Of a DNA stretch of 64,000 bases, positions 38,935-43,236 are shown one piece after another. The notes beneath the pieces are model-generated. The model was not told the origin of the DNA. It searched no databases and saw only the letters and a program-made list of their open reading frames with translations. This stretch comes from Sphingobacteriales bacterium. GTDB lineage: Bacteria; Bacteroidota; Bacteroidia; Chitinophagales; CAIOSU01. The position numbers were made by a program, and so were the translations under genes. Numbering within the stretch: position 1 is the stretch's first letter; each line of letters begins with the position of its first letter. The stretch lies in assembly GCA_027483645.1 (NCBI GenBank), contig JAIXUD010000010.1, forward strand, positions 188,001-252,000, read 5' to 3'.

Positions 38935-40914
38935 TTGTCTATGCGGTTTTGGAATAGTGTCTCGCTAAGGCCTGCCCTTACTTTTATATTTATCATCTTG
39001 TTGGGGCGTATCGCCTCCGCACAGGGCGATGCAAACGAACTTTATTGGTATGTAGATGGCAAAAAGCTATCCTATGACTGGAGCCCAGAGCATTTTGCTG
39101 TGCAGGTACCTACCGATGAGCAGGTGCAACCCCTTACTACCACCTTCATGTCGAAAAAGGAAGCCGTAGTTTGTGCTACCGATAAGTATATTGAGTTTCA
39201 ATTTACTGCTAATATACCGGCTACCAGTAAGCAAAACCATATTCAAGAAATTTTGGCCCAATACAATGCCAACCAAGTGCTACCGGTGTTCTACCAAAAA
39301 GGCACTTCGCAGCCACTTTTTATGGACAACCAGATTATGGTTCGTTTCAAAAAGGGCAACATCAGCCGCGATGAGGTGGCAAATTTTATGCAAAAGCACA
39401 AACTTGCTTTGCAAAACCCGCAGGTATGGAACATGCCCGAGAGCGGCAAGCAGGTATTTATCTTCAGTATGCTTAACAATACGTTGGAGTATACCGCAGG
39501 ACACTTGGCAGGGCAGCTTTTTGAGCAAGAAAAGCAACTGGTAGCTTCGGCCCAACCCAACAGAATGAATATTGTGGTTTCACCTGATGGTGAGGCGATG
39601 GACCCTTCTTCAAACCCCGCCTTTTACAAATCATGGCACTTGGATAATAATGGACAGCAGCTGTTTTGTAGTGCCAAATCGGGTACCGACAATGCTGATG
39701 TACAAGTAAAAGAAACTTGGAGCCTTGGCTACACTGGCGAAGGTATTACCATTGGGGTGGTTGATATTGGTGGATTTGATTACAACCACCCAGCAGTACA
39801 AGGCAGGTTTGCGGCGGGCTGGGATTGTATTAATAATCGTAGCTATGATGCCGGTAACTTCTATTTTTCTGATGCTAGCCAAGGCCATGGCATGGGTGTA
39901 GCGGGTATAATTGTAGCCAGCAGTAGCAACGGTGCCACTGGTGTTGCCCCAGGCGCAAAAGTTTCGCCATTGCTTATCAATGGCTCTGAAGCTTCTATTG
40001 TATTGGCTTTGCAAAAGGCCCTTGAGATGAATCTGGATATTGTAAACATGAGCTTTGCAATGGGTTATAGCGAGGCGGTAAAGCAGCAGGTGCTTAACCT
40101 AGCCAACCTAGGCCGTAACCAATACGGTACCGCTTTGGGTACCATAATCATTACCAGCCATGGTAATAACGGTGCCGACGATGCCGTGAGCCCACAATGG
40201 CCAGCAGCCTATGATGAGGTGATTAGTGTAGCCGCATCAACCCCAGATGACCGACTGAAAACTAGTGCAGACAATTGGAGTATTGGCAATACTTGGGCTA
40301 CCAACTATGGTGGTATGCTCGATTTGGCTGCGCCTGGCGTTTGCATCTATACTACCGACATAAGCGGCCCTAATGGATATGCCAGTACCGATTACACAGG
40401 GTTGCAAAAAACCAGTGCCGCCGCACCCATAGTTGCGGGTGTTGCTGCCTTGCTATTAAGCAAAAACAATGGGCTGCCTTGGAAAGAAGTGCGTACCATA
40501 CTATTTAATAGTGCCGACAAAGTACATAGCAGCGAGTACAACTATAGCCATGATGCCAGCAAAGCTGGCCATAGCCGCGAAATGGGCTACGGCCGCGTAA
40601 ATGCCTACAAAGCGCTGAGCGAGGTAAGTGTAGGTATTACTGATGTACCAACTTTTAAAGTGGATATTAAGGTAGTAAACCCTGTTGAAAACGGGCAGCT
40701 AGAAATCTTCTACCCGGGAGCTGAGCTAGAAGATAACATGACAGTGGGCGTGTATGATATGAGCGGGAAGCTTATGGCTACACAAGCGCTGGGCCGACAC
40801 GAAGATTATGTAACAATTGATGTAATGGACATGACCCCAGGTATGTACTTTGCCCGCTTTATGTACCGCGAAGATGAGCTGGTGCAAACAGTGAAGTTTG
40901 TAAAATTATGGTAA
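38935..40914 (+). CDS. Secreted S8 (subtilisin-like) serine protease with T9SS sorting domain
   Basis: A 659-residue secreted protease. After a signal peptide (MRFWNSVSLRPALTFIFIIL) comes a long N-terminal pro-region (about 30-215: ANELYWYVDGKKLSYDW, FMDNQIMVRFKKGNISRDE). The subtilase domain has Asp277 (VVDIGGFDYNHPA), His318 (GHGMGVAGI), the oxyanion Asn in TSHGNNG and Ser494 (KTSAAAPIVAGVAALL). The C-terminus, VVNPVENGQLEIFYPG to MTPGMYFARF, is a T9SS type A sorting domain. The next gene encodes a protein resembling its pro-region but lacking the protease domain. The product probably acts on the cell surface or in the medium. Confidence 0.92.
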   Translation: MSMRFWNSVSLRPALTFIFIILLGRIASAQGDANELYWYVDGKKLSYDWSPEHFAVQVPTDEQVQPLTTTFMSKKEAVVCATDKYIEFQFTANIPATSKQNHIQEILAQYNANQVLPVFYQKGTSQPLFMDNQIMVRFKKGNISRDEVANFMQKHKLALQNPQVWNMPESGKQVFIFSMLNNTLEYTAGHLAGQLFEQEKQLVASAQPNRMNIVVSPDGEAMDPSSNPAFYKSWHLDNNGQQLFCSAKSGTDNADVQVKETWSLGYTGEGITIGVVDIGGFDYNHPAVQGRFAAGWDCINNRSYDAGNFYFSDASQGHGMGVAGIIVASSSNGATGVAPGAKVSPLLINGSEASIVLALQKALEMNLDIVNMSFAMGYSEAVKQQVLNLANLGRNQYGTALGTIIITSHGNNGADDAVSPQWPAAYDEVISVAASTPDDRLKTSADNWSIGNTWATNYGGMLDLAAPGVCIYTTDISGPNGYASTDYTGLQKTSAAAPIVAGVAALLLSKNNGLPWKEVRTILFNSADKVHSSEYNYSHDASKAGHSREMGYGRVNAYKALSEVSVGITDVPTFKVDIKVVNPVENGQLEIFYPGAELEDNMTVGVYDMSGKLMATQALGRHEDYVTIDVMDMTPGMYFARFMYREDELVQTVKFVKLW

Positions 40915-40927
40915 GGTTTGGTAGCTG

Positions 40928-40951
40928 GTTGATCTGTTGATTGGTTGATCA
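40928..40951 (+). repeat. Period-8 word array (GGTTGATC type), left arm of an inverted pair
   Basis: GGTTGATC, TGTTGATT, GGTTGATC. Its reverse complement matches about 40979-41002. Confidence 0.65.
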
Positions 40952-40961
40952 GGAATATGTA

Positions 40962-41026
40962 AACCCACTGATAGGCCGATTAACCAATCAACTGATACAC
41001 CGATTAACTGATAAACCGATTAACCG
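40962..41026 (-). repeat. Period-8 word array (AACYGATY type), right arm
   Basis: Top strand includes AACCAATC, AACTGATA, CACCGATT, AACTGATA, AACCGATT, AACCG, reaching eight bases before the next ATG. Confidence 0.7.
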
Positions 41027-41033
41027 AAAACCA

Positions 41034-41987
41034 ATGAGAAATCTCCAGAAAATAACCATATTCGGCTTTGGGGCGGTTATCATCACCATGGCATTTGCGT
41101 TCCGCTCGGGAAGCAATGATCCATACTATTATGCCAACGGAGAGAAGCTCTACTGGCAATCTCAATACGACGTTTATGCGTTCCGCACGGTGGACGAGGA
41201 CTCGTTTAAAATGGCCCTTGATTCGGCTGTCGTTGATTATGTAGATTACCGTGGAAATCAACCGGACAAACTGCATTTTGTATTTTTTAGTGCCAATAGC
41301 AGCAACTGGCAGCGGCTGCAGGTAATTGATGATATTGAACGGCATAATTCATTTTCACGCTCGTTTCCAGTGGTTACCATGTTTGAGTATACGCCTGCCG
41401 AAGCTGGCCTGTGGTATGTAGCCGACGACCAGATAATGCTAATGTTCAAAACCGATAGCTTACGCCAAGCGCACCTGCCACGCTTAATGGCTGAATACAA
41501 CTTAGAGCAGGTAAACGACCCTAGCAATTTGCCGGCAGGCGGAAACTATGCCTACATATTGAAGTGGGATGTGAGGGATAGCCTTGTAATGAATAGTATT
41601 GACCTGAGCCGGACCATGTTTGAGCGTGATAGCGCAGTGCTATGGTCGGCAGAGCCGAACTTAATACGCGGCTATGAGCCGGTTTGGCTAGAAGAAGACG
41701 ATATGAGCACGGCTGCCCCCAGTTTGGATAGCGAGGCTAGCGCGGCAACCCTATATGTGGTAAGCCAACCGGGCGGTACACTAAATGTTCATGTTATTTG
41801 CAAACAGCCGCATTATGTTTTCCGCATGTACGATTTGTTTGGTCGCCTACTTACCGAGCGTCGCCTAACGGCTGAAGATACCCAACTGGACCTCAATATC
41901 GGCCATCTTTCTCGCGGTATCTACTTCAGTACTTTGGAAACCACTGGCGGGCAGCCGTTTGCTACCGTTAAGTTTTTGAAGGAGTAA
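41034..41987 (+). CDS. Secreted protease-propeptide-like protein with T9SS sorting domain
   Basis: A 317-residue protein starting MRNLQKITIFGFGAVIITMA (signal or membrane anchor). The in-frame upstream extension to 40941 is word-array DNA, so the later Met is preferred. Residues about 25-225 resemble the pro-region of the upstream subtilase in order: YYYANGEKLYWQSQYDVYAF, then GLWYVADDQIMLMFKTDSLR, then AVLWSAEPNLIRGYEPVW. The subtilase domain is missing and the chain passes straight to a type A sorting domain (FRMYDLFGRLLTERRLT to LSRGIYFSTLET). It could be a stand-alone inhibitor, chaperone or duplicated remnant of the protease. The gene follows the protease after 119 bp. Confidence 0.8.
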   Translation: MRNLQKITIFGFGAVIITMAFAFRSGSNDPYYYANGEKLYWQSQYDVYAFRTVDEDSFKMALDSAVVDYVDYRGNQPDKLHFVFFSANSSNWQRLQVIDDIERHNSFSRSFPVVTMFEYTPAEAGLWYVADDQIMLMFKTDSLRQAHLPRLMAEYNLEQVNDPSNLPAGGNYAYILKWDVRDSLVMNSIDLSRTMFERDSAVLWSAEPNLIRGYEPVWLEEDDMSTAAPSLDSEASAATLYVVSQPGGTLNVHVICKQPHYVFRMYDLFGRLLTERRLTAEDTQLDLNIGHLSRGIYFSTLETTGGQPFATVKFLKE

Positions 41988-42276: not shown

Positions 42277-43236
42277 TCAAGGAGCAGGCAACAATACTTT
42301 GTCAATAGCGTGAATTACGCCATTGGTTGCCTGTACGTCGGTGGCAACAATGTTGGTCACACGACCGCTGCCATCAGTGATTTTGGCACCGCCAGTCAAA
42401 CCAATGGTGAAGGTACCGCTAGCCAACGGCGTTACTATTTGGCCTTCGGTTAATGAACCTGCCAATACGTTGCCATTTGCTACGTGGTAATTTAATACAG
42501 CTTCCAATGTTGAAGTTGGGATGCTATCCAAAGAAGTTGCACCTAGTTCAACCAACAAAGAATCAAATGCAGCGTTTGTTGGTGCAAATACAGTGAAAGG
42601 GCCAGTACCTGACAATACTGTAGGGTAGTTAGTGGTCAAACCTGGACGAGTCAAAGCCGCTACCAAGGTGCTGAAGTTAGGGTCAGCCAAAGCAAATGTA
42701 GGTATTACTGGCAAGCCAATAACAGCATTAACTTTATGCACCACACCGTTGCTTGCTTCTAGGTTGGCAGCAGTTACAGTCGATCCACCGTTCAAGGTTA
42801 CACCGCCAGTGGTGCTTACATACAATTTTAGCGCGCTGGTAGTAGTACCATAAGTAGCCAAAGTGCTCAAATAGCCAGTAGTAAGGGCAGTACTTGGCAA
42901 CTCTTGGGCTATTACGTGGTTAAGCAATACTTGGGTCAACAATGCTGTTGGCACGTCATCCAAAGTTGCAAAACCATTTGCAGAAAGGAAAGCGGCAAAT
43001 GCAGCATTGGTAGGTGCAAACACAGTAAAGGTACCTTCGGCAGTTAATTCGTCTACCAAACCAGCTTTGGTAACGGCAGCTACCAAAGAAGTAAGGCTAG
43101 TATCGCTTTGTGCAAGCTCTACAAGGTTAAGGGCTTTGGGGGTATTATCATCATCATCGTCATCTTTGTCGCATGATACAAAGGCGATAGATGTTGCCAA
43201 AAACAACATCATAAGTAGTGGGATTCGATTGAACAT
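42277..43236 (-). CDS. Lipoprotein with two fasciclin domains
   Basis: A 319-residue surface lipoprotein. The signal MFNRIPLLMMLFLATSIAFVSC has a lipobox Cys and is followed by an acidic linker DKDDDDDDNTP. Two fasciclin (FAS1) domains follow: LNLVELAQSDTSLTSLVAAV with GTFTVFAPTNAAFAAFL, and FALADPNFSTLVAALTRPG with GPFTVFAPTNAAFDSLL, each ending in a VVHKVNAVI- or VIHAIDKVL-type strand. FAS1 domains usually mediate adhesion. The gene has its own terminator and stands alone. Confidence 0.92.
   Translation of the reverse strand: MFNRIPLLMMLFLATSIAFVSCDKDDDDDDNTPKALNLVELAQSDTSLTSLVAAVTKAGLVDELTAEGTFTVFAPTNAAFAAFLSANGFATLDDVPTALLTQVLLNHVIAQELPSTALTTGYLSTLATYGTTTSALKLYVSTTGGVTLNGGSTVTAANLEASNGVVHKVNAVIGLPVIPTFALADPNFSTLVAALTRPGLTTNYPTVLSGTGPFTVFAPTNAAFDSLLVELGATSLDSIPTSTLEAVLNYHVANGNVLAGSLTEGQIVTPLASGTFTIGLTGGAKITDGSGRVTNIVATDVQATNGVIHAIDKVLLPAP

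Follow-up and report, generated by a model that had tools for sequence, protein, structure and literature searches.

Proteases that are exported as T9SS cargo have to cross the periplasm and the outer membrane without attacking the cell, and the accepted safeguard is a pro-domain encoded in cis. In the periplasm, for example, gingipains, which are T9SS proteases, are held inactive by their pro-domains (PMC10202324). Stand-alone inhibitors built on a subtilase propeptide (MEROPS I9 type) include Plasmodium SUB1-ProM, Toxoplasma MIC5, Pleurotus POIA1, yeast PBI2 and Arabidopsis SPI-1, of which SUB1-ProM is encoded beside subtilase genes and inhibits one of those subtilases (PMC6993865). In Streptococcus pyogenes, the gene adjoining that of SpeB codes for the propeptide analogue Spi, an inhibitor of SpeB, according to the account cited in PMC2873492. 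Among the Bacteroidota, the T9SS-exported KLIKK proteases of Tannerella are encoded beside genes for dedicated secreted inhibitors, the potempins (PMC7296668).

The locus described here, found in a window of 64,000 nucleotides (the whole stretch of DNA that was analysed) from a Bacteroidota genome, consists of a T9SS subtilase gene and a directly following orphan gene for a pro-region without catalytic domain. Like the I9-type stand-alone inhibitors, the orphan is based on a subtilase propeptide and encoded by a gene of its own. Those inhibitors are, however, eukaryotic, and the three classic members are small proteins reported to have no significant sequence similarity to propeptides, whereas the homology of the orphan is traceable, its pro-region is bipartite (block A and an apparently I9-like block B), a T9SS C-terminal sorting domain (CTD) is attached, the pro-region of the partner has diverged and inhibition is a prediction. 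SpeB–Spi, as far as portrayed in the citing paper, likewise joins a bacterial secreted protease to a neighbouring propeptide-analogue gene, but involves a C10 cysteine protease of unrelated fold and no T9SS tail. Potempins resemble the orphan, for which inhibition is predicted, in being encoded next to a Bacteroidota T9SS protease; they are small lipoproteins encoded upstream, in contrast to the downstream, propeptide-derived orphan with its T9SS CTD instead of a lipobox. Gingipain pro-domains finally act in cis on a cysteine protease, while the orphan is a separate gene beside a subtilase.

A preliminary description of this DNA knew of no system of exactly this layout. In a literature search that mostly covered papers available without subscription a T9SS-sorted stand-alone subtilase pro-region was indeed not found; stand-alone subtilase propeptides and Spi are, on the other hand, already described. 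New is thus the T9SS-sorted bipartite stand-alone propeptide next to a protease whose cis copy has eroded, each ingredient being known separately. A co-encoded and separately exported pro-region would, if true, add a second type of safeguard, or a regulator, to the cis pro-domain.

Architecture of the orphan and its partner subtilase

The orphan gene (41034-41987, + strand) encodes 317 amino acids which comprise, from N- to C-terminus of the translation, a putative signal peptide, a bipartite pro-region, a linker and a T9SS CTD. The mechanically derived open reading frame extends over 40941-41987 and opens with TTG, but the biological start is placed at the ATG at 41034 because the family homologues measure 315-320 amino acids. 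Judged from sequence, the hydrophobic N-terminal segment (residues 1-23, 41034-41102; MRNLQKITIFGFGAVIITMAFAF) is signal-peptide-like; it contains no cysteine and therefore no lipobox. The subsequent two-block pro-region of about 190 residues is homologous to that of the adjoining subtilase. Block A (residues 24-112, 41103-41369), delimited by alignment and the HMM of cis pro-regions introduced below, carries the motif YYxNGxKLYWQxQxDVYAFR which also recurs in cis pro-regions from other families. The predicted I9/fervidolysin-like block B (residues 113-216, 41370-41681) ends in E207-P-N209. According to the alignment, a poorly conserved acidic linker (residues 217-240, 41682-41753) occupies the place of the subtilase catalytic domain and leads to the T9SS CTD (residues 241-317, 41754-41984; PF18962, TIGR04183). 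In a Pfam and NCBIfam scan of all 317 residues this tail was the sole match, which upholds the earlier statement that the orphan lacks a catalytic domain and carries its own sorting domain. The PF18962 score of the tail stays below the cut-off (E 3e-4, 21.5 of 27 bits; TIGR04183, E 0.006), but the cut-off is passed by the orthologues in genomes G005 and G006 (28.9 bits each) and by a catalytic-less copy in a genome of another family, G055 (46 bits), and the alignment indicates retention of the tail in all orphan orthologues. The genome encodes SprA (TIGR04189, 2635.9 bits) and therefore has a T9SS.

The partner (38941-40914, + strand; 657 amino acids) is an S8 subtilase (PF00082, E 6e-39) composed of a signal-like N-terminus, its own diverged pro-region (residues 29-212, 39025-39576, + strand), the catalytic domain and a T9SS tail that scores over the cut-off (TIGR04183, 27.4 bits). 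In the residue alignment the catalytic positions D275, H316, N409 and S492 are all in place. Between the two genes lie 119 bp (40915-41033, + strand) in which a terminator-like site was not found on the strand of the genes. This intergenic stretch is built of degenerate repeats of short motifs (CCGATTAACC/TGATTGGTTGAT-like).

BLASTP aligns residues 27-209 of the orphan with residues 31-207 of the protease (22% identity, E 3e-7), and a second HSP links their C-terminal tails. A profile alignment of the two N-terminal regions, suggested by the preliminary description, was highly significant (hhalign of eight orphan pro-region sequences, A3, versus six protease pro-region sequences, A4: probability 99.1, E 9.2e-19, 183 columns). 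Moreover, the protease pro-region HMM assigned 40.9 bits to the orphan versus 5.0 bits to the best of 1000 composition-preserving shuffles, and a search of the own genome with the orphan returned the neighbouring protease as the only other match. The three sequence blocks originally noticed (Y-Y-NG-KLYW, DDQIMLMFK and W-AEPNLIRG) all fall within the alignment in the same order, and the propeptide-like nature ascribed to the orphan is thereby borne out. A single-sequence similarity of residues 23-111 to the N-termini of M1 peptidases (E down to 9e-7) was discarded; it amounted to 5.6-14.2 bits with the orphan profile and was absent with the cis profile.

AlphaFold2 models of the orphan (pLDDT 42.1, four sequences) and the partner (pLDDT 32.6, three sequences) are both too poor for a fold comparison. 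Residues 133-205 of the orphan are predicted as β-α-β-β-α-β with a pLDDT of about 42-80 in this block of a model that has 42 as a whole. The same element order characterizes the subtilisin propeptide. The segment of the G006 protease that matches block B aligns with positions 6-81 of 81 of PF22148, the fervidolysin N-terminal pro-domain, below the cut-off (E 0.016). In the alignment, the orphans close block B with E/Q-P-N, and E207-x-N209 fits the helix-capping pattern E-x-D/N represented by E69/D71 of BPN' and Glu146/Asn148 of SUB1-ProM (PMC6993865). Secondary structure prediction, PF22148 match and E/Q-P-N ending are consistent with an I9-like block B but are no proof of it. Fold searches of the PDB with the orphan model covered the tail only; they matched nothing but the Ig-like domain at the C-terminus and listed no propeptide fold, and among other Ig-like folds the T9SS CTDs 8gl8, 8gl6 and 7pq4 were found (Z 4.8-5.9). 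The pro-region profile matched no PDB sequence up to E 10, and for block A no known fold or relative outside this T9SS subtilase family was matched.

Cis pro-regions in other families

A class-level scan with the orphan profile revealed S8 proteases (L110-L115) which bear the same pro-region in cis, and a second order-level scan added two more (L119 and L120). The cis proteases scored possess T9SS-type tails wherever the gene is complete, with that of L110 below the cut-off. Aligned with the cis pro-regions of other families, the orphan reaches an E-value of 5.9e-36 (hhalign). Leaving aside the degenerate L110, the catalytic domains of the cis proteases match that of the partner with E 1e-57 to 1e-75, compared to 1e-48 and weaker for the paralogues in its own genome, and are its closest relatives found here. 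On the basis of the shared pro-region and the closer catalytic domains, the orphan, the partner and the cis proteases thus belong to one T9SS subtilase family.

An HMM built on six cis pro-regions taken from other families (cis HMM) gave 83-143 bits for the seven orphans of the family and 9.6-74 bits for the own pro-regions of six partners. The orphan outscores the pro-region of its partner in each genome, with 143 versus 9.6 bits in G005, 83 versus 20 in G006 and 117 versus 56 in the window. Judged by these sequence scores, it is the orphan which retains the canonical pro-region, and the partner's own which has eroded. In the pro-region tree, a branch with 99/98 support parts the partner pro-regions from those of orphans and cis proteases, and a topology that unites orphans and partners is disfavoured (p-AU 0.035); as several branches are long, the HMM comparison is the more reliable of the two. 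The view of the orphan as a plain copy of its neighbour's pro-region is too simple in the light of both analyses.

In the tree, the catalytic-less copy in G055 clusters with cis pro-regions from other families, and a single clade of all catalytic-less copies is rejected (p-AU 0.023), with the long branches as a caveat. Both results suggest a second origin, and the G055 copy seems, from sequence relationships, to have arisen independently. G055 contains one complete copy, without a protease beside it on its contig, and two further fragments at contig ends. Behind the complete copy (L100 12854-13889, G055:C49), at the end of the contig, a repeat (about GTTGTGAATTGATTTCAAATTGTATATTTACATAAG) occurs twice with a spacer and may mark the beginning of a CRISPR array.

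Two of the cis subtilases deviate in their catalytic positions. L110 (5539-7677, G510) combines a canonical pro-region and a T9SS-like tail with the loss of all four catalytic positions (D→G, H→Y, N→G, S→N) and might illustrate another way in which a pro-region carrier without catalytic function arises. Two genes downstream of it follows an S8 protease whose motifs are intact; as G510 has many S8 genes, this adjacency may be due to chance. In L112 (4267-7848, G426), the catalytic Asp is changed to Glu and the oxyanion Asn to Arg, and its activity is doubtful.

Conservation of the pair and selection

The same gene pair, which the preliminary description had proposed to look for elsewhere, is kept in 7/7 family genomes seen (five within the genus and two from other genera, i.e. 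three genera), with the orphan directly following the subtilase on the same strand; the G001 contig carries just the 3' part of the protease. The two outcomes which that description had named as contradicting it, dissimilar N-terminal regions (here compared as profiles) and a pair conserved nowhere, did not occur. The genes are never more than 119 bp apart; in G006 the gap is 18 bp, and in G005 stop and start codon overlap by 1 nt. The outer neighbours of the pair differ between the window, the genus and the other genera. A gene for a fasciclin-like repeat lipoprotein (42277-43236), convergent with the orphan, adjoins it genus-wide (76-84% identity); in neither of the other genera is it conserved at this position. 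In an order-level profile scan (396 genomes, 164 genera) orphans were confined to the source family and G055. Further catalytic-less copies were not detected in class- and phylum-level scans of about 400 genomes each, in 87 genomes of one other order and in a few more, all draws being partly overlapping samples and the phylum draw bringing no further genomes. Nor was an orphan found beside any of the remaining S8 genes in this genome.

Purifying selection acts on the orphan (dN/dS 0.06-0.08 in close genus pairs), most strongly in block B (0 to 0.065) and least in the linker (0.25-0.40). Between G002 and G003, block B is identical at a dS of 0.36. Between the window and its genus relatives, block B identity is 74-76% in the orphan versus 65-69% in the protease's own pro-region, for which dN/dS is 0.03-0.17 in the G002-G003 pair. 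The orphan ratios disfavour a decaying pseudogene.

A possible role in trans

As the pair is kept throughout a bacterial family, the orphan probably serves the protease as a brake, or as a folding aid, that is exported on its own. We favour, with a probability of roughly 0.55, a stand-alone trans-acting pro-region which is co-expressed with the partner, exported by the T9SS and chiefly a lasting inhibitor of the partner; co-transcription, export, binding and inhibition are what we infer. The orphan would descend from a subtilase of the same family, most likely as a tandem copy from which the catalytic domain was lost while signal peptide, pro-region and T9SS tail remained. Expressed together with the intact protease, it would pass Sec and then the T9SS as separate cargo. 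The I9-like block B might bind the mature catalytic domain like the subtilisin propeptide, with its sheet on two surface helices, the E/Q-P-N element near the helix caps and the following segment directed towards the cleft. Because the orphan has no junction to a catalytic domain of its own, it would escape cis autoprocessing and persist as inhibitor, thereby protecting secretion route and cell surface.

This proposal is in line with the full pro-region homology, the strict pairing despite changing neighbours, the purifying selection, the intact catalytic residues of the partner, the cis HMM scores, the E207-x-N209 pattern, SprA and the occurrence of the same pro-region in cis on the partner's closest relatives found here, and has precedents in stand-alone propeptides that inhibit subtilases and gingipain pro-domains that inhibit T9SS proteases (PMC10202324). 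Against it count the G055 copy without adjoining protease, the low confidence of both AlphaFold2 models, the match of block B to a known pro-domain family only below the cut-off and that of block A to no known fold, and, against the tandem duplication in particular, the separation of orphan and partner pro-regions in the tree, again with long branches. Furthermore, a second lasting inhibitor would have to be removed or titrated, since the partner retains a pro-region of its own.

The erosion of the partner's pro-region wherever an orphan exists suggests that part of its function has passed to the orphan, so that a folding role is conceivable as well. In the form that the partner's pro-region lost its chaperone function and the orphan folds the catalytic domain in the periplasm prior to T9SS export, such a role is unlikely as the principal one, although it would account for that erosion in every orphan genome (down to the 9.6 and 20 bits of G005 and G006), genomes with a canonical cis pro-region gave just that single match, and propeptides of mesophilic subtilases are both chaperones and inhibitors (PMC10580911). 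A periplasmic helper needs no T9SS tail, yet all orthologues keep it, and the partner's pro-region is still under selection. More tentatively, at clearly less than even odds, a zymogen pro-region may have been transferred from cis to trans in this bacterial family, such that the canonical pro-region now acts as a separate T9SS-exported inhibitor and/or folder, the protease's own decays and catalytic-less copies arose at least two times.

An inhibitor or decoy of broad range, directed against own paralogues or proteases of other organisms and paired with the partner by history only, would suit the several other S8 proteases of the genome, the family-wide rather than partner-specific character of the retained pro-region and the solitary G055 copy; the strict association with one protease across three genera renders it improbable. 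The preliminary description had also considered localisation. An orphan that binds the mature protease and anchors the complex at the surface by its T9SS tail would agree with the conserved pairing of two proteins with tails of their own, but a protease already so equipped needs no second anchor and a canonical pro-region suggests a cleft-facing role, which makes such an adaptor decidedly improbable. A functionless relic of a truncated subtilase is hardly credible: the orphan is in effect a subtilase minus its catalytic domain, but it is intact in all seven genomes, its dN/dS is low, block B is identical in G002 and G003, and G055 provides a second, apparently independent copy. The series of pro-regions in cis only, eroded in cis and present in trans, and carried by a dead protease makes the evolution of an inhibitor from its enzyme directly testable.

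A different arrangement, reminiscent of potempins and KLIKK proteases, occurs in the same genome and family as the orphan. At L089 4313-6696 (G000:C10 about 218312-220695), L101 4247-6666 and L102 3895-6356, a lipoprotein gene lies directly upstream of a different T9SS subtilase of 552-565 amino acids, with a 4-nt overlap in two cases and a spacing of 5 bp in the third. The arrangement is orthologous across three genera (lipoproteins 42-44% identical), the one lipoprotein scanned has no Pfam family, and the two genes may form a protease-inhibitor pair of that kind.
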